From contig JAUJOY010000005.1 in the NCBI GenBank assembly GCA_030447385.1, forward strand, positions 192,319-256,318: a stretch of DNA of 64,000 nt, in the 5' to 3' direction. This DNA comes from Mycobacteriales bacterium. Its GTDB lineage: Bacteria; Actinomycetota; Actinomycetes; Mycobacteriales; SCTD01. Positions 1-11,511 of this stretch are shown here, in pieces (the stretch's first letter is position 1; every line of letters starts with the position of its first letter). Under the pieces are notes generated by a model, which did not search any database, was not told where the DNA came from, and saw only the letters and a list, made by a program, of their open reading frames with translations. Made by a program: the position numbers and the translations under genes.

Positions 1-852
1 CGCGTTCCTCGCCGCCAACGCCGGGTCGCACACCCAGTTCGTCACCGGCATCGTGGCGATGCCCGGCCCCGGACGAGAGCGGGCGCAGCTGCTCGATGTT
101 GTCCCCGGCCGGTCGGGAACCGTTGTCTCGCAATGGATGTCGGCGCGGGACCTCGCCTGGCGAGCACAGGTCACGACCGCGTCGCTGGACCCGTTCCGCG
201 GCTACGCTGCCGCCTTGCGCACCAGCCTGCCCGACGCGGTGCGGGTGCTCGACGCCTTTCACGTCGTGCGCCTGGGCCAGGCCGCGGTCGACGACGTTCG
301 ACGTCGCCGGCAGCAACAGACCCTCGGCCGGCGTGGGCATCGGCAGGACCCGCTCTACCGCGGCCGGCGGCTACTACGCCGCGGCTTCCGCACCCTCAAC
401 CAGCGGCAGTGGACCCGCCTGGAGCTGACCCTCACCGTCGGCGACCCGAGCGGGCAGCTGACGCAGGCGTGGATGGTCGCCCAGGAACTGCAACTGCTCT
501 ACGCCCGCAGCCACGACCTGTCCGACGCCAAGCACCGGTTGTGGCGGATCCTGGAGCGCTGCGCCCGCTCGGACGTGCCTGAGCTGCTCCGCCTGGTGAG
601 GACACTGGACGCCTGAGCCGACGAGCTCCTGGCCTACTGGAGCTCGACCGGCCGGCGCGGCGTCAGCAACGGCCCGACCGAAGCCACCAACGCCCTGATC
701 AAGAAGGTCAAGCGGGTCGGGCACGGCTTCCGCAACTTCGACAACTACCGACTGCGACTCCTGCTCGCCGTCGGTCTGGACTGGCGAACCGTGCACTGGC
801 AGGCTGCGCCTGCCACCCCGATCAGGGGCCCTCACCACGCTTGGTGGCGTAG
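1..852 (+). pseudogene. ISL3-family transposase, C-terminal part, disrupted
   Basis: This is the C-terminal half of a DDE transposase of the ISL3 type; its 5' end lies outside the window. The reading frame starting at base 2 gives FLAANAGSHTQFVTGIVAM, followed by the DAFHVVRLGQAAVDDVRR block typical of the catalytic domain. An in-frame TGA at 614-616 interrupts it. The same frame resumes with GVSNGPTEATNALIKKVKR and GHGFRNFDNYRLRLL, the conserved C-terminal block. Near base 828 a one-base shift restores the family ending IRG-SPRLVA and a TAG at 850-852. With one nonsense codon and one frameshift it is probably inactive. The family call is firm; the element ends were not found. Confidence 0.85.
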
Positions 853-916
853 AGCCGGCTATAAGGGAGCCGTTCCCGTCGGTGGATCGCTTTCCTACAG
901 GCGTTACCCTCGGTTG

Positions 917-1380
917 GTGACACGCCCGGAGGTGCCCGGCCACGTGGCTCTGCTCGCCGGAAGGCGGCGCGACGGCCAGCCTGTTCACGAGGTCCTTCCA
1001 GCCAGCGCTGGGCCGGACGGGCTGTGGCGGCTGATCGGGACCCCGGTCTGGCGGAGGGCTGCGCCGAGGGCGACGTGCTGTCGGTGGACCAGGACGGGCA
1101 GTTCAAGGCCCACGAGCGTGGAGGCAACATCGCCATCGTCTCGTACGCCAGACGGGGGCAGACGCGGACGCCGCATGCCCAGGCGCTCCGCGCCCTCCTG
1201 CCCCTGGGTGGCAAGGTCGAGCACCCCGAGGACGGGCGGTTCCTCGTCGCCACGGTTCCTCTCACAGTCGGCTTCCCCGCCATCGAGGAGGCGCTGAACG
1301 ACTGGGCGAGCGAGTCCGGCTGCGACTGGTCCTACGGCAACGTCTACGACGACGACGACCAGCCGCTCAACTGGTGGTAG
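917..1380 (+). pseudogene. DUF4265-like protein, single frameshift
   Basis: Two overlapping frames together read as one DUF4265-type protein of about 153 residues. The first frame, from GTG 917, ends in DGLWRLIGTPVW. The second continues AEGCAEGDVLSVDQDG and then FKAHERGGNIAIVSYARR. Adding one G in the GG run near 1051 joins them perfectly, so this is a one-base deletion or a sequencing error. The C-terminus is acidic and aromatic (NVYDDDDQPLNWW). The family has no known biochemical function. No partner gene is adjacent; it follows the broken transposase by 64 bases. Confidence 0.6.
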
Positions 1381-1488
1381 GTGCCGCTCCTCGTCCTGGA
1401 ACGGTTCGGCATCAGGGAGGCGTGGCTCGGGGGGACGCGGACGTGCTGTGCGCGGCCACGTCCGCGCCCTACCCGCGCCGGGCGGCCG

Positions 1489-2503
1489 TCAGGCGCGCAG
1501 GTCCGACGCGCGCCCGTCCGCTAGCAGAGACGGCTGTTGCGACCGGTAGAGCGCGTCGACCTCGGCCGCGGGTGGGCCGAGCTTCGACCGTGAGAAGGCT
1601 CCGCTCGGGGGTTGCTGCCACGGCATCTTCGCCACGAACAGCCGCGGGACGTTCACGACCACGCGCCGGTGGAGCACCCGCGCCACCGCGTCCAGCGGGA
1701 TGTGGACGCTGCGCCGCAGGCCACGCGCACGATGAGGTGACCGGGCGTGTCGCCGCTCGCCGGCACGACCTGCTTGAGGGTGCCGATCCGCAACCGGTCT
1801 GAGCCCACCACCGCGTCGCCCTGGCGGGGCAGGCGCGGGCCGTCGGTCAGCGCGTCGAGGAACTCCACGACGGTCAGCACCCCGTTGCCGATCAGCGGGT
1901 AGTTCAGTCGCACCGCCACCTCGTACGCCGCGACCGTGTCCGCGCCGATGGCATCGCGCAGGAACGTCACGTCGTAGCCGCGCTCCATCGCGTGCCGCCC
2001 GGTCGACTCGCAGCACAGGTTGGCCGTCATGCCGGCGATGACCAGATGGGTCGTGCCCAGCCGGTCCAGGTGCTCGGGCAGGTCGCTCTGGAACACATCG
2101 ACGCCCTTGTGCGGCAGCAGCACCACATCGCCCTGCTGCGGCTGCAGGTCGGGGTGGAAGTCGGCTCCCCACGAGCCGGCGAGGAACATCCTGCGCTCGA
2201 ACATCATCCGGTTGATGCCGCTGCGCCGCTGCAGCTGCGCGTCGGCGTAGTCCTCAGCGGTGAAGGCCATCGGCCCGAACAGCACGGGCACGCGGTGCCG
2301 GCGCGCACCGTGGATGGCCCGGCGCAGGTGTCCCACGACGTCGTGCTTCTCGACGGTGCTTCGCGTCATGTCCCAGTCGGCGCCACCCTCAGACAGGAAG
2401 TCGTTGACCGGGTCGATGACCAACAGAGCCGTCCGGTCAGCCAGGAACGCCGTCGCCGCGTCTGGGCCGCGCGGCCCCCATCAGGCGCAGCCTCGTCCAC
2501 CAT
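1489..2503 (-). pseudogene. isochorismatase-like cysteine hydrolase with C-terminal PRC-barrel/DUF2171-like domain, frameshifted
   Basis: The core is an isochorismatase-fold cysteine hydrolase. The catalytic Asp is in LLVIDPVNDFLSEGG, and the nucleophile Cys lies in VIAGMTANLCCESTGR. The family acts on isochorismate, nicotinamide or similar amides; the substrate here cannot be told. After about residue 220, GDAVVGSDRLRIGTLKQV and then SVHIPLDAVARVLHRRVV look like a PRC-barrel/DUF2171 beta domain, an uncommon fusion. The best start is ATG 2503, eight bases after a GGAGGG site. That start needs a frameshift in the G5/C5 run at 2475-2479, and the C-terminal domain needs a second near 1715. Both may be sequence errors. 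Confidence 0.6.
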
Positions 2504-2900
2504 GTCCACGTCCCTCCTGCGCCTGACTGCGGCGCGTGTACCCAGCCGGACCAGCGCTCTGCGCGCTCTGCCTCAAGCAGTGCGTCGTCATCCCGCACAG
2601 CGACAGGCTGCCACGGCCTGCGACCCGGCCTTGAACGGGCACCGCGACAGGCTCATTGACCCCGGCCGTCGTGACCATACGACCCATGTGACGCGTTAGG
2701 TGCTCTCAGGTGACCAGCGGTAGAAGCCGTTCCTCAATGGCCAGCGACAGTTGACGCAATTGGGGCGACTGCCGACGTAAGGCCCACTGACACCGGCCGG
2801 GACAGACGCGTGACGCGTGTCGGATCCCGGTCCTGTCGTAGACCGCTCTAGTGTCGTTCAGAGCCCCCGGGCAAACGTGGGCGGACGGGAGGTGGACCGA
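2504..2900. other. intergenic region between divergent genes
   Basis: This gap of 397 bases separates the cysteine hydrolase (minus) from the small aromatic-rich gene (plus). It has no coding region I can support. It holds one copy of a short sequence, AGAAGCCGTTCC at about 2720-2731, that recurs elsewhere in the first 10.4 kb. A TAGTGT hexamer at 2849-2854 could be a -10 element for the rightward gene, but no convincing -35 is visible. Confidence 0.4.
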
Positions 2901-3134
2901 GTGGCTGACCACCCGAGGTGGGTCATTGCCTACAAGCCTGATCCGGGTGAGCGGAAGCACTGGTGGGGCACCAACAACGCCGGCGCCGGGGGATGGTCGC
3001 CCTATCCGGGCAACGCCCACCACTACGACAGCGAGAACTCGGCGCTCCACGTCATGCATTCCAGGCCCAGCCTCAAGCGGAGCGCCCGCGGTGAGGTCCT
3101 TGTCGAGCGCCGGCCGCCGCTCCCGACAACCTAG
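2901..3134 (+). CDS. small aromatic- and histidine-rich hypothetical protein
   Basis: This is a 77-residue protein of unknown function. GTG 2901 is chosen because a GGGAGG ribosome-binding site ends eight bases upstream. The protein is rich in Trp, Tyr and His (RWVIAYKPDPGERKHWWG, PYPGNAHHYDSENSALHVM) and ends in a basic tail. It has no signal peptide or membrane segment. The high share of Trp and Asn and the good start context argue against a random frame. Its stop codon (3132-3134) lies one base before the CTAG target duplication of the IS1380 element, so the insertion did not cut the frame. Confidence 0.5.
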   Translation: MADHPRWVIAYKPDPGERKHWWGTNNAGAGGWSPYPGNAHHYDSENSALHVMHSRPSLKRSARGEVLVERRPPLPTT

Positions 3135-3139
3135 GCTAG

Positions 3140-3151
3140 CCTCGATCTTTC
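3140..3151 (+). repeat. left terminal inverted repeat of IS1380 element
   Basis: The 12-base sequence CCTCGATCTTTC matches the right end exactly in inverted orientation. CTAG precedes it. Confidence 0.88.
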
Positions 3152-3271
3152 GTGATCTTGGTGGACGTTGAGGGGTGTGGCCTGGCGGTCAGTCGCTGTT
3201 TCGTGGACGTGGGTGTGTTCCGCGTCTGTCGCGGCTTCCGGGTTCCTGGTCGGCGGGGCTGGGCTTGAGTG

Positions 3272-4638
3272 TCAGGTGCTGAGGGCGGTGAGCCGGTCGT
3301 GGCCGGCGAGCAGGATCGGGTTCCAGGGCCAGCCGCGGGGCAGCCGAAGCCACTCGCGTCGGCTCGTTCGGGTCCATCGTCCGGCGACGTGCAGTAGACG
3401 GAACCGCAGGCGTTTGGGTTCCCAGGTGCGCGCCTGTGCCGGTCAGAGCCAGGTGCTGGGTCCAGGCGAGCAGGTCGCTGGCCAGGGCGATGAGTTCGAG
3501 CCAGATCTGGTTGGCGGCGAAGTCGTGCAACGGCAGGTTCCGCGCAGTCCGGTGTCTTTCAGGCACCGGATGCGGTCCTCGGCTCGGGCCCGGAGCCGGT
3601 GTTGGACTTCCAGATCGGCGATGCGGCCGGGCAGGTTGGTGGCGAACACGGTGATGCGCCAGCCGTCGCGGTCGGTGATGCGCAGCCTGCGCTCCCGGGT
3701 GCGGCCGTTCCCGGCGGGCGATCACTCGCATGCTCTGCGGCCAGCGCTTGTGGCCGGTGGCGACCGGGACGTAGCGGGTGAGTTCGGCGACCTGCGCGCC
3801 CTCGCGTGGCAGCCCGTCAGGGTCGAGCGCGGCCTTCCACGCTTGGCGCGGCACGTTCTCCAGCGCGTCCAGGATCGTCGGCCAGCCGGCCAGGCCGACC
3901 GAGTAGCCCAGCCCGAGCCTGGTCCAGGTGCTCGACGAAGCGGTGCGTGCCGGCGCCGCTGTCGCCACGCACCACGACCGGGCCGCGCAGGTCCTCGGGC
4001 AGCTGGGCGAGCGCGTCGGTCAGCACGGTGATGTGGTCGGCGGCGTTGTTGGCGTTCACCTTGCCCGGCCGCAGCATCGCGGCCAGGCACTCCCCGGTGC
4101 CACCCAGGCCGTGGTCGGCGAACACCAGCAGCGGGCAGAACCCGAAGCCCCGCTTGAACGTGGGCTGCGCACCTTCCTTCTCCGAGTGCGCATCGACCAG
4201 CGTCGCGTCCAGGTCGATGACCAGCCACCCGTCCGGCTCGGTCACCGGCTGCAGCTGCCAGACCTGCGCCTGGCCTGCGCTCGGGCGCTGCGGATCGCGG
4301 CCAGCGAGGCGTCCACGTCCGCGGCGAGCGTGGTGATCAGCCGCGAGACGGTCGGGTCCGAGGCGACGTCACCGAACAGCTCCGGCTGGCAGCGGACCGC
4401 GGCCAGGTCGGCCAGGCAGTCACCGCCGAGCGCAATCGCGACGGCCAGATCGAGCAGCACCTTGCCCGGATCGTGCCGGGCACGGACCGGTCGCCACGGC
4501 GCGAGCGCCTGCGACAGGGCCCTCGGCAACCCCACCAGGCTCAGCGGTCTGCAGCAGCAGCCCGCCACCAGCCGAGGACAGCAGCCACTCGCCGCCCACC
4601 GCTACCCGCGGTCCTGTGGAACGCCCTTTACCCTTCAC
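3272..4638 (-). pseudogene. IS1380-family transposase, multiply frameshifted
   Basis: This is a DDE transposase split over all three minus frames. In order from GTG 4638: GPRVAVGGEWLLSSAGGG; then ALSQALAPWRPVRARHD and CLADLAAVRCQPELFGD; then, after 4245, GWLVIDLDATLVDAHSEKEG (first catalytic Asp) and VVVRGDSGAGTHRFVEHLD (second Asp); then, after about 3910, LGLGYSVGLAGWPTILDALE; then FATNLPGRIADLEVQHRLRA; then HDFAANQIWLELIALASDLL near the C-terminus. It ends at the TGA at 3272-3274. At least four frame changes are needed, more than programmed frameshifting could explain, so the copy is dead or the sequence is poor here. Confidence 0.85.
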
Positions 4639-4757
4639 CCACGGAGTGCCTCTCCGCTCGTGGTTTCTGCAGCCTTCGACAAGCCCAGAATCCCCAGCAG
4701 AGCAGGCACTTCCGTACATCTACGACCCGTGTCGCACCTGAAGATCAGCCGTCTTGT

Positions 4758-4769
4758 GAAAGATCGAGG
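4758..4769 (-). repeat. right terminal inverted repeat of IS1380 element
   Basis: GAAAGATCGAGG is the exact complement of the left end. CTAG follows at 4770-4773. Confidence 0.88.
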
Positions 4770-4798
4770 CTAGGGGCGGTCAGGGCCGTAGCCGCGCG

Positions 4799-5201
4799 TC
4801 AGTCCGCCTCGAAGCCCAGCAGGTCGGGCGGCACGGCCCCTCGCTCGACGAACTCCCCGAGGGCACGCACAGCGACCGAAAGCGGAACGGTGCTGCCGCT
4901 GCCCGCCTCTGACCAACTCCCTCGATAGTCGAAGACGAGGACGGGCCCTGCGGCGGTCCACCGATGCTGCTGTGCGACGCCCCGTCGGGGTGGGTGCAAA
5001 CTAGGAAGGCCCGCTCACCGTCCGTAGAGAGTGACAGGGAGGTGCCGTCGACAAAGCCTCCACTTCCAGGGTTGGGTGCCCGATGGAGGTCCGCGTCGCT
5101 AGGACATCTTCGACGGCCCGCTGAACGTCGGACGCCGTCTCAACCGGGAACGGCACGAGGTCCAAGCCATCCTCGTCCCGGTGGTACGTCCCGACCGCCA
5201 T
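4799..5201 (-). pseudogene. Imm1-like immunity protein, frameshifted
   Basis: Read across two frame changes (near 5060 and 4990), this gives a protein of about 134 residues resembling the Imm1 family, which neutralises toxins of polymorphic/contact-dependent toxin systems. The N-terminus from ATG 5201 reads MAVGTYHRDEDGLDLVPFP. The middle is FVDGTSLSLSTDGERAFLV. The C-terminus is AAGPVLVFDYRGSWSEAG and VPLSVAVRALGEFVERG, the family's typical late beta strand and helix. No toxin gene is adjacent, so it is an orphan. The frameshifts may be real decay, as it lies just beside the IS1380 insertion. The family assignment rests on pattern only. Confidence 0.5.
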
Positions 5202-5243
5202 CAGCCAGAGGCTAGGGGAGCCGTTCTGCATGTGCAGTGGCAC

Positions 5244-5249
5244 TACGGT
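5244..5249 (+). promoter_or_regulatory. candidate -10 element, leaderless gene 5256
   Basis: TACGGT ends six bases before GTG 5256 and no Shine-Dalgarno site is present, as expected for a leaderless transcript. Confidence 0.4.
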
Positions 5250-5255
5250 CGCTCG

Positions 5256-5528
5256 GTGAACGTAAACAGCCGTGCGCATCGTCGCGAACAGCGTCGGTCC
5301 GGTGTGGAAGCACTGTTTGGGGCAGCCGCCGATGCGGCGCTTGACCTCCTGGAGCTGACCGAGCTGGCCTGGCATGACTGCTACGGCGACGTCACGCCTC
5401 CGGAACAGGTCGTCGCCGACATTCTCGACGTTTCGCAGGGTCAGCTCGACCGGATGGCGTCTGCAGCCAGACTCGCCGTCGAGGACCACCGGGACCTACG
5501 GCTGCAGGCCGAGCGCCTCCGCCGGTAG
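5256..5528 (+). CDS. hypothetical protein, 90 aa, helical
   Basis: The product is a small soluble protein of unknown function. GTG 5256 is chosen because a TACGGT -10 hexamer lies six bases upstream. The sequence is mostly helical and acidic in the middle (LFGAAADAALDLLELTELAWHDCYGD is the first half), followed by a second helix pair around VVADILDVSQGQLDRMASAA. The C-terminus is charged (DHRDLRLQAERLRR). No family is recognised. It is transcribed divergently from the Imm1-like gene with 54 bases between the starts. Confidence 0.55.
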   Translation: MNVNSRAHRREQRRSGVEALFGAAADAALDLLELTELAWHDCYGDVTPPEQVVADILDVSQGQLDRMASAARLAVEDHRDLRLQAERLRR

Positions 5529-5536
5529 GGCGGCGG

Positions 5537-6082
5537 CTAGCGCTTGCCGGCCGGGCGCAGCTCGTACGCTCCCCAGACAACGAGGAGGGCGGCGTAGACC
5601 CAGGTCTGGCCGGCGAACGGCTTGACCATCTGCTGCTCGAGCAGGGCGAACACGCCGAACAGCAGCACGGGCATGGCGATGCTCATCGCGCTGATGGAGA
5701 AGCCTCGCATCTGGGTGAGCAGCGCCGCAAGCACACCGCCCAGCCCGAGCGCCATCACGGCTAGGGCGAGGAACTGGAAGCTGTCGGGCATCCGGCCGTC
5801 CCGCAGCCACAGCGCCGCTGCGAGGCCGACGGCGGTGATGACGAACCCGGGTCCCCACAGCGTGCCCCGGCTGCGGCTGGCGGCGGCTGCGGCCAGGTAG
5901 GTGAGGCCGGTCAGTGTCGGGAACCAGTAGAAGGGGATCGTTTCGGTCTCGATGAGCGCGAGGATGAGCAGGGCGCCGGCGATCAGGGCGATACCGCGGA
6001 TCCGTCGGGCTCTGGTGTCGTTGCCGTCGTGCGAGTTGTCGGCGGTGTCGGGCGCGCCGGTCGACGTCGTGGGCTGCGTCAT
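5537..6082 (-). CDS. multi-pass membrane protein of unknown function
   Basis: This 181-residue protein has a polar N-terminal tail of about 30 residues (Thr, Asp, Asn-rich, then RARRIRG) and about six hydrophobic segments. These include GIALIAGALLILALIE, LTGLTYLAAAAASR, FVITAVGLAAALWL, FLALAVMALGLGGVLAALL, SIAMPVLLFGVFALLEQQM and VYAALLVVWGAYEL. It ends with a basic RPAGKR tail. The positive charges after the tail suggest a cytoplasmic N-terminus. The frame is intact, unlike its neighbours. No known family is evident; a stress-associated small membrane protein is one possibility only. Confidence 0.65.
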   Translation of the reverse strand: MTQPTTSTGAPDTADNSHDGNDTRARRIRGIALIAGALLILALIETETIPFYWFPTLTGLTYLAAAAASRSRGTLWGPGFVITAVGLAAALWLRDGRMPDSFQFLALAVMALGLGGVLAALLTQMRGFSISAMSIAMPVLLFGVFALLEQQMVKPFAGQTWVYAALLVVWGAYELRPAGKR

Positions 6083-6222
6083 GGTTGTCCTCCAGGTGGT
6101 CCGTCAATGCGACGGTTGTCTTCTTGGACGCGCCGCAACACCTGTTGATTGCACAGAAGCGCGCCGGACCATGCTGGAGGAGCCTCGTATCGGCTGAGAT
6201 CGCGCCGAGGGCGGGCTCGTCC

Positions 6223-6898
6223 TCAGGGGACCAGCAGGCCCCGGGCGACCTGTTCGAGGGTGGCGGCGGCCACGTCAGGCTCGGTGAAGATCGCCGGCCA
6301 GGGCGTGGCGCGCCGGTTGATCCAGCCGCACCTCATCCCGGTGGCCGCCGCGCCGTGCAGGTCCCAGGGGTGCACGGCGACCATCGCGCACCGCTCCGGC
6401 GGCACGCCGCACTGCTCGGAGGCGTACCGGTAGGCGTCCGGGTGCGGCTTCCACCGGCCGGCGTCGTCGACGGACAGCCGGCGCTCGACGAGGTCCGCCA
6501 CACCGGTCCGCTCGAGCAACGACTCGGCCTGCGTGAGCGAGCCGTTGGTCAAGGTGACCACCCGTACGCCGGCCTCGGCGAGAGCTCGTAGGCCGGCCGG
6601 CACGTCCGGGTGCACGTCGAGCGCCTTCATCCCCTCGAGGACCGTGGCGACCGCCTCCTCAACCGGCAGCGTGAGGCCGTGGACGGAGCTGAGCAGCCCG
6701 TCAGGACCGCTGCACCGATCTGGGGGAACGGGCGCGCGGTGCCACTCGCGGCCAGGGCGAAGCCGTCACGAAGCGTGCCAGCGAACCAGACATCGAGCAG
6801 ATGCCCGGGGCGCCCGCCCCGAGCAGGAGGGCGCGCAGCGGCTCGAGGTCCGACAACGTCTCGTTCACGTCGAGGACGACCAGCTCCGGCGCAGACAC
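6223..6898 (-). pseudogene. haloacid dehalogenase, type II (HAD superfamily), frameshifted twice
   Basis: Three frames together give a typical type II 2-haloacid dehalogenase of about 224 residues, an enzyme that hydrolyses 2-haloalkanoates through an aspartyl ester. The N-terminus from GTG 6898 carries the nucleophile Asp in ELVVLDVNETLSDLEPLR. After a shift near 6804 it reads HLLDVWFAGTLRDGFALAA. After a second near 6700 it reads LPVEEAVATVLEGMKALDVH, VVTLTNGSLTQAESLLER, WKPHPDAYRYASEQCGV and MVAVHPWDLHGAAATGM, covering motifs II to IV. All catalytic blocks are present. The two single-base shifts could be sequence errors. Confidence 0.7.
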
Positions 6899-7196
6899 GA
6901 CGCTCAGCCGTGCCCTTGCCCGTGTTGGACTGCAGCGGTTGCCATGGGTGTGATGCCTCTCCTCGGGCAGGTGACGTGCCGCCAGTCTGCCCGCCCGAGC
7001 GGAGCAGACACAGCGGAAGATCAACATCGAAACCTGGGTTGCAGAACGGCCGCAGGAGGCTGATCGACGCCGCACGCTGGTCCTGACCATCGGGCCGCCC
7101 GGCTGGAGAGGCACCATTCGCTGCAATCAACAACACTGGGGCTGCGTCCGGAGGGGCAGGGGCCACCTGGTCACTGCACAAGCCGAGGGGGTGCCC

Positions 7197-7721
7197 GTGA
7201 ACGACGAGGAGTTCCTCGACGCGTTCCACGAGCACCTCGACCGGTTGCACAACCTGACCCGCAGCCTCACCGGCACGGCGCAGGACGCCGAGGACCTCGT
7301 GTCCGAGACGTGCCTGCTGGCGCTGCGCGGCTGGCGGCGGAAGCGTCCCGACGATCCCGCTGCCTGGTTCGCGACGATCTGCCTCAACGCCGCCCGGTCC
7401 TCATACCGGCGCCGCGCGGCTCGTCCGGTGGAGGTGTGGGCAGATGATTGGCTGGTCGGACAGGCCGATCCCGACGCCGACACCCCGCAGGCAGCGATGT
7501 CTGCGCTGGACACCCAGCGGGTGCGCACCGCGATGCTGGGGCTGCCGGCCGTGCAGCTCGAGGCGATCACCTTGATGGACCTGGCCGGCTACACCGCGGC
7601 GCAGACCGCCACCATCCTGGGCGCTCCGCGAGGCACCGTTCTGGCACGGGTGCATCGCGGTCGTAAGGCACTGGCCCGCCTGCTTCAGGAGGACGAGGTG
7701 CATCGTGCCGCACGACCCTGA
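7197..7721 (+). CDS. ECF-type RNA polymerase sigma factor
   Basis: This 174-residue sigma factor directs RNA polymerase to a stress or envelope regulon. Region 2 is seen in AQDAEDLVSETCLLALRGW and region 4 in LPAVQLEAITLMDLAGYTA and GAPRGTVLARVHRGRKALA, the helix-turn-helix that reads the -35 element. GTG 7197 is preferred over GTG 7191 because the GAGGGGG site ends at a better distance. It overlaps the next gene, its likely anti-sigma factor, by 17 bases, the usual arrangement for ECF pairs. The frame is intact within a damaged neighbourhood. Confidence 0.9.
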   Translation: MNDEEFLDAFHEHLDRLHNLTRSLTGTAQDAEDLVSETCLLALRGWRRKRPDDPAAWFATICLNAARSSYRRRAARPVEVWADDWLVGQADPDADTPQAAMSALDTQRVRTAMLGLPAVQLEAITLMDLAGYTAAQTATILGAPRGTVLARVHRGRKALARLLQEDEVHRAARP

Positions 7722-8430
7722 GACCGACGCCGCGCGCTTCCTCGGCGGTGACCTCCCCACTGCCGAGCGCGAGACGTTCTCCCGGCACCTGCTCGGCTGC
7801 AACGCCTGCTGGGACGAGGTCGAGCAGGCCAGGCAGGGACGACGGCTGGCAGAGTCGACCCGCACAGCCGCTCCCGGTGAGCTCCGGGACCGTGTGCGCG
7901 CGCTGGTCGATGCCGAGCCGATCCCTGTGCGGCGGCGATCCACGCAGGTGTCCCGCCTGAAGCCGGGCCGATGGCTGCTCCCGGCTGGTGTGCCCGTGGC
8001 CGCGGCTGCGGCGGTCGCGCTCATCCTCACGTTCGGTTCGGGCAGCTCAGAGCCGCCGTCGCTGCGACAGGCCGTGGCTGACTTCAGTGCCGGGCAGTTG
8101 CCCGGTGCGCAGGTGCCGGCGGTAGGTGCACCCGACCTGTCGCAGCTGGACCTGCAGCCGGTCGGAGCCGGTGGCGGGACGTACGCGGGGCTCGACGTCG
8201 ACGGCTACGCCTACCGCGACCCGGCCGGCCGTCGCATCGTGCTGTACCTGTCCGACGAGGCGTTCCCCGAAGCCCCAGGCGCGCGGCGGCTAGCCGGCGA
8301 GGACGGACCATGGGTGGCTCAGCGCGGCGATGTCATCGTGCTGTGCGCCCGGCTGCCGCACGCACTGCTGGTCGTCGGGCAGGACGACGAGCTGGTACGC
8401 AGCACCGCCAGCGCCCTCGGCGTGCTGTGA
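7705..8430 (+). CDS. zinc-binding anti-sigma factor, membrane-anchored
   Basis: The 241-residue product has an N-terminal anti-sigma (zf-HC2/ZAS) domain with the HLLGCNACWDE motif (HxxxCxxC) at about residues 28-35. A basic stretch follows, then one membrane span (LPAGVPVAAAAAVALILTF, about 92-110), then an extracellular domain of about 120 residues ending in a strand-rich region (YAGLDVDGYAYRDPAGRR, DVIVLCARLPHALLVV). It should hold the upstream sigma factor inactive until a signal at the membrane. It overlaps the sigma gene by 17 bases and the next gene by four (GTGA), so the three are translationally coupled. Confidence 0.88.
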   Translation: MPHDPETDAARFLGGDLPTAERETFSRHLLGCNACWDEVEQARQGRRLAESTRTAAPGELRDRVRALVDAEPIPVRRRSTQVSRLKPGRWLLPAGVPVAAAAAVALILTFGSGSSEPPSLRQAVADFSAGQLPGAQVPAVGAPDLSQLDLQPVGAGGGTYAGLDVDGYAYRDPAGRRIVLYLSDEAFPEAPGARRLAGEDGPWVAQRGDVIVLCARLPHALLVVGQDDELVRSTASALGVL

Positions 8431-8666
8431 CTGAGCCCGAACGTCTCCCTCAGCCGACCGAGCTGGAGCGGTGGGTCAGCGAAGGAGGCTGGCTGGTAGA
8501 CCTGCTGCTGCCCAGCACAGACGCCGGGGTTGCCGTGCAGGCGCTCGCGCTGACCGTCGTGTTCGGTGTGCTGTTCCGGCTTGCTCGCCGCAGCGGGCTG
8601 CTGCAGCTGTGGGCAGGTGCGGTCGTCTTCACCGCCGGCTTGTTCGTCCTGCGCGGGGCGCACTAA
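8427..8666 (+). CDS. small membrane protein coupled to sigma/anti-sigma operon
   Basis: This is a 79-residue protein with a polar N-terminus (TEPERLPQPTELERWVSEG) and two hydrophobic segments, AVQALALTVVFGVLFRLA and LLQLWAGAVVFTAGLFVL. GTG 8427 overlaps the anti-sigma stop as GTGA, so it is the third gene of the ECF operon. No family is recognised. Its position suggests a role in signal sensing or in stability of the anti-sigma factor, but that is inference only. Confidence 0.65.
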   Translation: MTEPERLPQPTELERWVSEGGWLVDLLLPSTDAGVAVQALALTVVFGVLFRLARRSGLLQLWAGAVVFTAGLFVLRGAH

Positions 8667-8730
8667 CAGCATCCGCCGCATCAGGCTGGGCAGGACCCCC
8701 AGATCGCGCCGCAACCACCGGAGGAGGACC

Positions 8731-8856
8731 ATGGCCGAGCAGCGCACCGCGGACATCGACGGAATACCCGTGCGCTGGCTCGAGCACGGCAGCGGCATGA
8801 GGCCAGGCAGCGCGACCGGGGCACGACACGCCCCGAGTCCTGACTGCGACCCATAG
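8731..8856 (+). pseudogene. alpha/beta-hydrolase N-terminal remnant
   Basis: A strong GGAGGA site precedes ATG 8731. The first 21 residues (AEQRTADIDGIPVRWLEHGS) match the conserved start of alpha/beta-fold hydrolases, just before where the oxyanion-loop HG motif should appear. The sequence then becomes unrelated and stops at residue 41. The gene was probably truncated by a deletion or insertion. From 8857 to 9111 no further coding signal is seen. Confidence 0.5.
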
Positions 8857-9099
8857 CAGGACGCCGGGCTCCTCCCACTACGCGAGTGCGACCCCGTTGC
8901 CTGAGACCCACCCGGAGCTCGGGTGATCAGCCTGCACCGCCAGGGACGCCACCAGGCACCGTCACAACAACCGCCCACGACGCCCGGCCCCGACGCCCGG
9001 CTCCGCCGAGCGTCCCCCCGGCACGCCCACAACCAGTCTTGACACAGCGGCCCGTTGCTATGGGCCGTCCCAGCGCCACCCAGCTCCGGCACCCGACGC

Positions 9100-9105
9100 T
9101 AGCCT
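9100..9105 (+). promoter_or_regulatory. candidate -10 element, leaderless HAD gene
   Basis: TAGCCT lies six bases before ATG 9112 and there is no ribosome-binding site. Confidence 0.4.
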
Positions 9106-9111
9106 CCGCGC

Positions 9112-9733
9112 ATGAGGGCGGTGCTATTCGACGTTGACGGAGTCCTGCTCGACTCCTACGCCGGATACCGCGAGGTCTGGTCCCGCTGGTGTGTGCTGCG
9201 TGAAGTCGACCTCGAACTCGCATGGGCCGCGACGCACGGACGCCGCCCGGTCGAGACCGTGGCGGAGGTCGCGCCGCACCTGACTCCGGAAGACGAGTAC
9301 GTCGTTCTGAAGGCGCTGCTGGGGGAGGTGGTCGACCTCTTCCCGGCGTTCACGGGGGCTGCGCCTCTCCTGCACACGCTGCCCTCGGAGTCCTGGGGCG
9401 TCGTCACGAGCGGTCAACGCCACACAGTGCTCGCTCGGTTCAAGGCGCACGGCCTTCCCGAGCCGTCAGTGTTCGTAGACGGCGACGACGTGGCCGAAGG
9501 CAAGCCCTCGCCCGAGGGCTACCTGACCGCGGCCAGGTTGCTCGGCGTGCGTCCGATCGACTGCCTTGTTGTCGAGGACGCACCGGCTGGTGTCCGGGCA
9601 GGCCAAGGCGGCTGGCATGACGGTGCTGGCCATCGCCAGCACGCACCGCCCCGACGACCTGTCGAGTGCGGATGACGTTGTCCTATCGCTGGCGGACGCT
9701 GGTCCACGCGTTCGTGACTGGCTCGACGGCTGA
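9112..9733 (+). pseudogene. HAD-family phosphatase (GPP/phosphoglycolate phosphatase type), single frameshift
   Basis: This is a HAD hydrolase of about 206 residues. Motif I is MRAVLFDVDGVLLDS, with nucleophile Asp 7 and acid/base Asp 9. A cap domain follows, then motif II (WGVVTSGQ), the motif III Lys in DVAEGKPSPEGYLTAA and motif IV in DCLVVEDAPAGVRAG. At about 9600 a one-base shift is needed to continue as AAGMTVLAIASTHRPDDL and VRDWLDG, ending at TGA 9731-9733. The family dephosphorylates small sugar or glycerol phosphates. All catalytic motifs precede the frameshift. Confidence 0.75.
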
Positions 9734-9915
9734 GTGCCCGTTCCTGCTCAGGCCACCCGGTGAGGTAGGTGCCGTGTTCTACAGCGGGCATACGGCACGA
9801 CCGGCGGTCCAGTAGAAGCAGCCTCCCGGATCGTCGTTCCGTCCGCGCGATGCCCGTGGACTCCGCTGCGGCGCCCTCTGGGTGAGCCGGCCCGAGGACA
9901 GGGCATGAAGGGGGC

Positions 9916-10259
9916 ATGACCCCCGCCGCCCGCGAGGCCGCCGCGCGGCTGCTCGCCGCCAAGCGCGCTGAGACCCAGGCTCAGCTTGCCGCCGTCCGCG
10001 CCGAGTCTGACCGCTCCACCGCGTCCGCCGCCGGGCTCGGGTTCGGCAAGCGCGTGGGCGACACGACCAGCGTCGCGGTCGAGCGGTTGACCGAGGTCGC
10101 TGCCCACGGCGGGCTGCTAGGGACGCTGCGCCAGCTCGACCGGGCCGAACAGCACCTGGCCGACGGGACCTACGGTCGGTGTGAGTGCTGCGCCAAACTA
10201 TCCCCGACGACCGGCTGGAGGCTCGGCCGTTCGCAAACCTGTGCGTGGGGTGCGCGTAG
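9916..10259 (+). pseudogene. DksA/TraR-type C4 zinc-finger protein, single frameshift
   Basis: The protein of about 114 residues has a helical N-terminal hairpin (AREAAARLLAAKRAETQAQL), a linker around SVAVERLTEVAAHGG and a C-terminal four-cysteine zinc finger. The first Cys pair lies in YGRCECCAKL. The second (ANLCVGCA, then stop) appears only after a one-base shift near 10,200. DksA-like proteins bind the secondary channel of RNA polymerase and alter promoter output. In actinomycetes they are common small stress regulators. The ATG start is used because the residues that follow match the family's usual N-terminus. Confidence 0.7.
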
Positions 10260-10451
10260 CCGCTTGGCCCGACACGTCCTGGCACCACCAGCCCCGCCCA
10301 CTCGTGTTCATCGACGATGACCGTCGAGGGTCGTCCTGCCGGGAGTCAGCAGGACCGCGGAGTGGCACAAGCGGTAGGAGCCGTTCTTCGTGCTGCCGGG
10401 CATGAACCTGCTCGGGGCCGTTACTGGCGTGCACGGGATGACAAGGTGAGG

Positions 10452-10793
10452 ATGCAGCAGACTTCCGACGTGACCATGCCGGAGCCTGTCCGATTCGGCG
10501 CTCAGTGGATCTCGCACTGGAACGCCCGCGATGCCGAGGCGGTCCTAGCCCAGTACGCCGACGACGTCGTCTTCACGTCCCCCCCGGCGTTGAGGGTTGT
10601 TCCGAGCAGTGGCGGGACCGTGCGCGGCAAGGACGCGCTCCGCAGGTACTGGGCACGTGCGCTCGAAGCAAATCCGGATCTTCACTTCCAGCTGGTGGGC
10701 GTCTGCGCAGGGATCAACACCATCGTTCTTCAGTACCGGAACCAGCTGGGCGGGTTGGTCAGCGAGGTCCTGATCTTCCGGGATGGCTCGTAG
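10452..10793 (+). CDS. SnoaL/NTF2-like protein
   Basis: The 113-residue product has the cone-shaped alpha+beta fold of the SnoaL/NTF2-like superfamily. The N-terminal helix WISHWNARDAEAVLAQYADD is followed by VVFTSPPALRV, GKDALRRYWARALEANPDL and the strand block INTIVLQYRNQLGGLVSEVL. Members are small enzymes or binding proteins, and the substrate here is unknown. ATG 10452 follows a weak GTGAGG site; ATG 10476, which removes eight residues, is nearly as likely. It is monocistronic. Confidence 0.7.
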   Translation: MQQTSDVTMPEPVRFGAQWISHWNARDAEAVLAQYADDVVFTSPPALRVVPSSGGTVRGKDALRRYWARALEANPDLHFQLVGVCAGINTIVLQYRNQLGGLVSEVLIFRDGS

Positions 10794-11160
10794 CGGAAGG
10801 TCACGCCACGCATCTACGGTCGTGAGGCCGAGACAACTGCAGGCGGTAGGCGCCCGCCATAACCGAGCAGATCAAGGACGGCTCGACGGACTAGCCGCCA
10901 GACGTGCGCGGGTGTCAGTCAGCCCGTCGAGGGCTTCGTCCGCCGGAGAAGGTCCGGCGGTTGAGCAGCCAGCCGGCGGCCTGCCCGGTCGGGACCGCCG
11001 TTCGGCGGCTACGTGCGGGCGATAGCCTTGGCGGGGGCGAAAGTCGCAGTCGCGTGCCCCCCGCGTGCCCCATCTGCACACCATCAGGTGACCGAGTCGG
11101 TACGCCGTGGCACAGAACGCACCTCCTGACCTGCGGCTTTGCGACGCGCCGCTCCTCAGG
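10794..11160. other. non-coding stretch, likely right arm of an integrated element
   Basis: No gene can be supported in these 367 bases. Near 11,055-11,080 a GTGCCCC sequence is repeated (GTGCCCCCCGCGTGCCCC), a pattern I associate with the attachment arms of actinobacterial integrative elements. It lies directly before the tRNA-Ala fragment. Confidence 0.35.
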
Positions 11161-11208
11161 GCCTGCCTGGCAGTGTGGGGGTCAGGGGTTCGAGTCCCCT
11201 CAGCTCCA
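11161..11208 (+). other. 3' half of a tRNA-Ala gene, candidate attR site
   Basis: CCTGCCTGGCA matches the 5' anticodon stem and loop of tRNA-Ala(GGC). AGGGGTTCGAGTCCCCT is a perfect T arm, and CAGCTCC-A is the 3' acceptor strand with its discriminator. The 5' acceptor (GGGGCTG) and D arm are absent upstream, and the 3' side of the anticodon stem is degenerate. It is therefore not a functional tRNA. A 3' tRNA fragment followed by a native terminator is what remains downstream when an element integrates into a tRNA gene. Confidence 0.55.
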
Positions 11209-11220
11209 CCCGCAGGCACA

Positions 11221-11254
11221 GGGCCGCTGACCTGGGGAGCCAGGTCGGCGGCCC
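11221..11254 (+). terminator. strong hairpin terminator after tRNA-Ala fragment
   Basis: A 15-bp stem has one G-T pair (GGGCCGCTGACCTGG at 11221-11235 with CCAGGTCGGCGGCCC at 11240-11254), closed by the loop GGAG and followed by TTCGTCGT. It is probably the original terminator of the tRNA gene. Confidence 0.75.
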
Positions 11255-11511
11255 TTCGTCGTGATGCAGGCCCTTCGCGTCGGTGAGGGCTGGTGCACCA
11301 ATGGACGCTGGTGCGCCACATCGGACGTTCCGGGCACGGGGGGCGTCCTGACGGTCGCCTGCGATGTTTCGAGCGGCCGATACGCCGGGGTCGGCAGGTC
11401 TTTTTCGGATGGCCCTGAATTCACGTCCTCGCGCTGTACCGTAGGCCTGCTTCTCGCTGCACACGCGAGTCCGGGCACTGCTCGGCGGTTCACATGCATG
11501 GAGCGGTAGCA

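Follow-up and report, generated by a model that had tools for sequence, protein, structure and literature searches.

A displaced tRNA-Ala 3' half as the probable attR of a 17.6-kb genomic island, with co-variation between arm-type sites and integrase residues

Results

The tRNA-Ala fragment and its direct repeat

The DNA analyzed here is a stretch of 64,000 nucleotides (hereafter, the window) that corresponds to positions 192319-256318 of contig C13 in a host genome (G000) of 3.41 Mb with a high G+C content. Coordinates are those of the window unless preceded by a contig name. The following features of the window and of the adjoining part of C13 are relevant to the analysis:

1..11166, no strand: right 11.2 kb of the element delimited by direct repeats; the left 6.4 kb (intact tRNA-Ala, attL, integrase) is at C13:185842-192318
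C13:190663-192934, reaching window position 616: two transposase genes in the island (IS630-like DDE_3 and ISL3 type)
1024..1380, plus strand: DUF4265 protein, cargo (PF14085)
1653..2423, minus strand: isochorismatase-fold hydrolase, cargo (PF00857)
6223..6630, minus strand: HAD hydrolase, C-terminal part only, cargo (PF00702 positions 98-189 of 191)
7191..7721, plus strand: ECF sigma factor, cargo (PF04542/PF08281; TIGR02937)
7705..8430, plus strand: anti-sigma-like protein overlapping the sigma gene, cargo (NF052375, below cut-off)
9112..9675, plus strand: HAD hydrolase, cargo (PF00702)
10317..10793, plus strand: SnoaL-like protein, cargo, the final called gene before attR (PF12680)
11053..11074, plus strand: arm-type site at attR, CGTGCCCCCCG CGTGCCCCATC, two copies with an 11-bp period, 114 bases left of the core
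11167..11264, plus strand: attR, a perfect direct repeat made up of the displaced tRNA-Ala 3' part and a terminator-like hairpin
11167..11210, plus strand: tRNA-Ala(GGC) 3' half, equal to C13:185872-185915 of the intact ARAGORN-called gene
11167..11173, plus strand: anticodon loop CTGGCAG, presumed crossover region; the first repeat bases, with identity to the intact tRNA starting exactly at 11167
11220..11255, plus strand: terminator-like hairpin of 16 pairs without a T tract, present in both repeat copies

The tRNA-Ala 3' half includes the anticodon loop, the variable region, the T arm and the acceptor 3' strand and, as the original prediction held, is not accompanied by a 5' half: the tRNA sequence does not extend leftward past 11167. 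No complete tRNA was detected in the window by ARAGORN (0 genes) or Rfam (0 hits). When the fragment was used as a query against the genome, a single strong match was obtained elsewhere, at C13:185872-185965. The intact tRNA-Ala(GGC) gene expected to the left of the window was found at C13:185842-185915 (ARAGORN; C13:185842-185913 according to Rfam), 6.4 kb away, and its 3' end repeats the fragment.

The direct repeat spans 98 bp, with 98 of 98 bases identical between the attR copy (C13:203485-203582 in contig coordinates) and C13:185872-185969, and the copies diverge immediately past both edges. Its left edge is base 1 of the anticodon loop and its right edge lies 9 bases beyond the hairpin, such that the repeat extends 54 bases beyond the tRNA. 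The start of the repeat had been placed at 11161; the fragment itself stands, although the break falls exactly at 11167, 6 bases later. Similarly, the proposed 15-bp terminator is a genuine hairpin, albeit one of 16 pairs with no good T tract behind it. Its predicted free energy, for a folded stretch of 49 bases, is -39.7 kcal/mol (z -6.2), and none of 200 shuffles was equally stable. At 11376-11405, about 110 bases right of attR, there is another terminator-like site, with 6 pairs followed by a T run.

The repeat copies are spaced by 17,613 bases, which gives an element of 17,613 bp bounded on one side by the intact tRNA gene and on the other by a piece displaced from that gene. The claim that positions 1-11,160 belong to an integrated element was thus borne out, positions 1..11166 being the right part of this element. 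The element has a G+C content of 0.698, below the values obtained left of the tRNA (0.738) and, within the window, to the right of attR (0.729).

Integrase and cargo

The check proposed in advance also called for an integrase gene, and one was found within the element, beside the intact tRNA and just inside attL (C13:186081-187625, minus strand). The product is a tyrosine integrase (PF00589, E 3e-17; phrog_1, E 6e-58) in which the R...HxxR...H...Y residues are present, as read from the translation. The open frame encompasses 514 aa, and the start is probably the Met that gives about 376 aa; residue numbers used below are those of the 376-aa frame.

Apart from the cargo listed above, several further called island genes gave no match. 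Among the 20 called element proteins (simple G+C-rule gene calls), no Rep protein (RepSA, RepAM, Prim-Pol) was detected with Pfam. The FtsK/SpoIIIE domain is absent from the element, with the sole hit in the genome at C8, and so is the PF03432 relaxase, for which genome hits were obtained only at C1, C9 and C11. Because no excisionase or transfer gene was recognized in the element, the present mobility of the island is doubtful. A PADLOC defence scan of 10 element proteins found nothing, and the search of the same 10 proteins against PHROGs returned integrase, transposase and unknown families only; the possibility of defence or phage cargo was dropped after these results. The island isochorismatase has one good relative in the same genus (G002:C9, 67%), on a contig other than the tRNA contig.

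Tandem arm-type sites

The GTGCCCC repeat upstream of the fragment had been likened to attachment arms of actinobacterial integrative elements. The 7-mer by itself is not enriched in the window (18 found against 26.5 expected), and its count, being below expectation, was rejected as a signal; the 22-bp tandem is the meaningful part of this claim and occurs at both element ends. The GTGCCCC pair noted at 11054 belongs to one of two arm sites, the second of which lies inside attL; the attR arm CGTGCCCCCCGCGTGCCCCATC (11053-11074) matches the attL arm CGTGCCCCCTGCGTGCCCTATC (C13:186000) at all but 2 of 22 bases. The pattern GTGCCC-N5-GTGCCC is found 4 times in the 3.41-Mb genome (reversed control, 0), namely at both element ends, beside an integrase at tRNA-Gly(CCC) on C9, and on C1. 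The occurrence of such a rare tandem inside both ends, and also beside related integrases, supports the attachment-arm interpretation.

At the C9 locus (G000:C9:422378; L054, L154), the GTGCCC tandem arm recurs beside a second integrase, which adjoins tRNA-Gly(CCC). In the match between this second integrase and that of the island, about 80 residues are skipped although the DNA is adjacent; the gene may therefore be broken. The 16.5 kb read at this locus contained no orphan tRNA half. Another related integrase is encoded on the island's own contig (C13:142274-143338; L261), with no convincing arm tandem.

From named public genomes, we collected 80 related-integrase loci, 53 of which have an adjoining tRNA on the expected strand. 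A tandem with an 11-bp period follows the tRNA in 52 of these 53 loci, 40-88 bases downstream, compared to 0.33 in shuffled intervals and a background of 0.007 per interval. In a motif-free scan of periods 8-20, only 11 stands out (50/53 loci), all other periods being represented 0 to 5 times. Wherever a strong orphan tRNA half was in view (L064, L071, L130, L132 and L135), a tandem of the same type precedes it by 105-145 bases (5/5). These five loci measure approximately 2-3.4 kb from the tRNA to the orphan half and contain little beyond the integrase gene and the arms. One further element with an arm before an orphan half was observed in G021. The tandem is not a feature of every integrase: the motif was called for 72 of 162 integrases, against 4.7 in shuffles. 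The literal arm strings were not found in the literature searched.

Co-variation of arm bases and integrase residues

The letters of the tandem vary among elements, and so do a few residues in the N-terminal part of the integrase. To quantify this association, we collapsed identical pairs of arm and N-terminus, which left 81 non-redundant pairs out of 95; L260 and L261 (unclear phase, poor tandem) were left out of the 81-pair count. Some of the arms in this first set had been selected with a rule in which base 5 had to be C and base 6 either C or A; this rule was not applied to the held-out set. The latter consists of 30 loci, that is, 43 minus 8 with integrases more than 95% identical to those of the first set and minus 5 redundant ones; the rules for arm bases 3, 6 and 7 were fixed before any additional loci were fetched.

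Among the 321 columns, the highest normalised mutual information was obtained with residues 12, 10, 20 and 8 for arm bases 3, 5, 6 and 7, respectively; no N-terminal column stands out for bases 8 and 9. In the 81 pairs, G at base 3 goes with R at residue 12 (G with R, 15; G without R, 1; T without R, 65; 80/81 in agreement, p 2e-15), and a base other than C at base 6 goes with S at residue 20 (not C with S, 11; C with S, 1; C with R, 69; again 80/81, p 1e-12). Base 5 and residue 10 are likewise associated (A with D, 5; C with R, 76; p 4e-8), as are base 7 and residue 8 (C with R, 12; C without R, 9; neither, 60; Fisher p 4e-9).

On a tree inferred from the catalytic and core-binding regions of the integrase, base 3 and residue 12, with 8 changes each, co-change on 6 branches, and base 6 and residue 20, with 8 and 9 changes, co-change on 8 branches. 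The tree shows just one event for base 5 and residue 10, and 3 shared branches for base 7 and residue 8. When all testable columns were ranked by the number of shared branches, residues 12 and 20 came out on top for bases 3 and 6; residue 8 did not for base 7. In the held-out loci, the base 3 and base 6 rules each held in 29 of 30 cases and the base 7 rule in 24 of 30. The link between base 7 and residue 8 is weak because residue 8 is not the best column on the tree and because of this lower held-out agreement.

The exceptions include L202, with G at base 3 and L at residue 12; L258, in which the two arm copies differ at base 6; L214, L071 and L075, which lack R at residue 8 despite C at base 7; and loci whose arms read GTGACC, which combine C at base 7 with S or T at residue 8. 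In two plasmids, Micromonospora rosaria pMR2 and Paenarthrobacter pTC1, the related integrases carry S at residue 20; inspection of the arms by eye gave G or A at base 6, matching the non-C rule. In pMR2, the arms flank a stretch that we interpreted, again by eye, as the 3' half of a tRNA-Phe lying in the opposite orientation.

The N-terminal domain

Arm-binding domains are considered a mark of mobile tyrosine recombinases (PMC8138268). Pfam alone does not name the N-terminal domain. In the predicted model of a related integrase (L057, mean pLDDT 89.6), residues 4-50 adopt an arm-binding-type arrangement of three strands (4-8, 14-19 and 25-27) and a helix (35-50). Residues 8, 10 and 20 of our numbering correspond to residues 5, 7 and 17 of this model, on strands 1 and 2, and residue 12 corresponds to residue 9, just beyond strand 1. 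Because residues 8 and 10 alternate on strand 1 of the model, they should face the same way. Among solved structures, Tn1549 Int matched over 291 residues (Z 23.4, rmsd 2.7), its N-terminal domain being absent, and lambda Int (1z1b) over 316 residues (Z 18.8, rmsd 10.0), with an alignment that begins at residue 1.

The tRNA-Ala site in related genomes

In genomes of the same family, the gene immediately left of tRNA-Ala and the genes preceding it retain their order, without the element. At the relatives' tRNA-Ala, the element's integrase alone gave matches (19 stretches of limited length, some ending at contig ends). Conserved synteny of positions 1-11,160 in relatives, the observation named in advance as speaking against an element, was therefore absent from the stretches searched. 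The genes called on the 3' side of 12 relatives' tRNA-Ala loci are almost never shared, either mutually or with G000: a comparison of the 12 loci that also included the element and the right flank of attR matched only one integrase pair at 96%, another at 31% and a single further pair at 29%. Orphan tRNA-Ala 3' halves, with a match start at query positions 347-351, are present in at least 18 of 61 genomes, among the matches listed. The low gene sharing combined with the recurrence of orphan halves argues that the tRNA-Ala site is used repeatedly for insertion.

Two observations on other genomes bear on the same site. A single contig, G013:C1 (L148, L149, L150), carries one intact tRNA-Ala and two orphan 3' halves, which suggests tandem islands; its arms, located after the tRNA and before the first orphan half, are of a different type (CGTGGTGCCAG CGTGGTGGCC). 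The integrase fragments at tRNA-Ala in G007:C162 (L141) and G013:C1 (L148) are 96% identical across two genera, and the same hairpin type follows the tRNA in both; this points to recent transfer, and the hairpin seems to accompany the integrase type.

An empty site was sought with a query consisting of the joined flanks (800 bases). All 61 genomes matched around the tRNA, and the full flanks matched in G000 alone; none of the 60 relatives has a clean empty site, the joined flanks matching around the tRNA and hairpin only or in short pieces. Two candidates were rejected. G003 matches at 97% over query positions 311-437, with no integrase match before the contig end and only a degenerate arm-like stretch. 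G001, from the same genus, has a perfect arm after tRNA-Ala and no integrase match in 18 kb; this locus (G001:C38 near 26.5 kb, L137) looks like a footprint left by an element that was lost or has decayed, and not like an empty site.

The genes right of attR are also not found beside tRNA-Ala in the relatives' stretches, and for this reason an older insertion may be present right of attR. The CHAD gene right of attR was detected, with good E-values, in 4 genomes of the same genus; because it resides there on contigs other than the tRNA ones, the right flank is unusable as proof of an empty site.

Discussion

The original prediction, that the fragment is the attR of an island lying to its left, is supported by the present analysis. 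The direct observations are the repeat, the intact tRNA, the integrase gene, the arm sequences and their co-variation with the protein. From these, we infer strand exchange, arm binding and any mobility at present. Under the model we propose, the tyrosine integrase encoded inside attL would have recombined attP with attB within the anticodon loop. The incoming element would have supplied its own tRNA 3' half and hairpin, leaving the tRNA gene whole at attL, and the original 3' half and hairpin would have been displaced to attR. The two arm-type sites, 11-bp tandems inside attL and attR, would be read by the three-stranded N-terminal domain of the integrase, chiefly via residues 12 and 20 and perhaps also 8 and 10. 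We assign a probability of about 95% to this explanation as a whole, that is, that positions 11167-11264 represent the attR of a 17.6-kb integrative genomic island in tRNA-Ala(GGC), made by its own integrase, with arms read by the N-terminal domain.

Partial tRNA genes are reported to be common in prokaryotes (PMC9897764), and no transfer genes were found in the cargo, as might be expected if the fragment were a leftover of tRNA duplication or decay and positions 1-11166 were ordinary chromosome. This interpretation is hardly credible given that the repeat continues past the tRNA through the hairpin and breaks precisely at the anticodon loop, and that an integrase gene lies between the copies, with matching arm sites at both ends. 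The affiliation of the 17.6-kb element with the AICEs is a different matter. With 40.7% identity over 91%, the integrase is a relative of the one in the AICE pMR2, and the attP layout resembles that of pMR2, such that this assignment deserves consideration; we nevertheless regard it as rather unlikely, with the FtsK/SpoIIIE domain encoded only on a contig outside the element, no relaxase of the PF03432 family within it and no Rep detected with Pfam among its 20 called proteins. Because neither an FtsK/SpoIIIE nor a PF03432 relaxase gene was found in it, the element is a tRNA-gene genomic island and not a demonstrated AICE.

With regard to the co-variation, arm and integrase are inherited together, and shared ancestry alone could generate associations of this kind. 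For base 5 and residue 10, which changed in one event, and for base 7 and residue 8, with few common branches, the tree agrees with such an origin. The two main links are more difficult to explain in this manner: base 3 and residue 12 as well as base 6 and residue 20 changed together repeatedly, on more branches than any other column, and the rules held in the subsequently fetched loci. We therefore consider shared ancestry as the sole cause to be improbable. An alternative that we deem probable is an arm-site code in a large family of actinobacterial integrases. The code would reside in strands 1 and 2 of the N-terminal sheet together with the intervening turn: arm base 3 would be G when residue 12 is R and T otherwise, and arm base 6 would be C when residue 20 is R but a different base when it is S. 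Residues 10 and 8 are less certain candidates, for bases 5 and 7, respectively. The code would apply independently of the tRNA that is targeted.

These findings have several implications. An 11-bp tandem beside a tRNA gene provides a compact signature for the ends of actinobacterial islands, even when the integrase has decayed, and the links between arm bases and residues make the choice of arm site directly testable by binding, with proteins and short DNA. If the code is true, the protein could serve to predict att sites in elements not yet studied, and single changes could reassign arm specificity.

As an individual, the island is new; otherwise, it is an ordinary member of a well-described class. 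In the islands of the Islander class, an intact tRNA gene at one end is combined with a displaced fragment at the other, and anticodon-centred sites form a main group, with 2083 of 3919 candidate islands in this crossover class (PMC4383910). The present island shares with them the intact tRNA, the displaced 3' fragment, the tyrosine integrase and the anticodon-centred crossover, and we found no difference of weight relative to the cited part of that account; the 98-bp repeat is long because the hairpin is included. AICEs of the pMR2 and pSAM2 kinds use tRNA 3' ends (PMC3218068), and arm repeats have been described for pACPL and pSAM2, those of pACPL being two 21-nt repeats (PMC3364876). The tRNA target and the arm repeats flanking the core are thus common to the island and these AICEs (PMC3218068, PMC3364876), and pMR2 also resembles it in the related integrase and the 11-bp tandem arms in the att region. 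In contrast, the pACPL arms, as described in the cited part of the source, have other letters and an apparent 12-base period (PMC3364876), and no Rep or Tra was found in the island, unlike in AICEs. Lambda Int and Tn1549 Int share the fold of the core-binding and catalytic domains, and lambda Int also aligns over the N-terminal domain; however, the identity is 18-23%, and the matched Tn1549 structures lack the N-terminal domain.

Both the arm layout and the idea of arms read by particular residues have precedents in mycobacteriophages (PMC3203893, PMC3706429). In Cluster K, two pairs of 11-bp repeats flank the core, and N-terminal positions 17 and 19 have been proposed to read a variable arm base (PMC3203893); in Cluster J, there are pairs of 10-bp arms, and the core starts in the anticodon loop of tRNA-Leu (PMC3706429). 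The attP sites of both clusters resemble the island in having paired arm sites of 10-11 bp around the core. A comparable table of arm bases and residues was not found in the literature searched, which excluded most subscription papers. The co-variation table, computational as it is, appears to be the more novel part of this work. The cited part of the Cluster J report includes no systematic link between arm and residue (PMC3706429), whereas two strong base-residue links emerge here; and for Cluster K, the cited part of the report discusses one variable arm base in four phages, compared to 81 pairs here, with two strong links and repeated changes on the tree.
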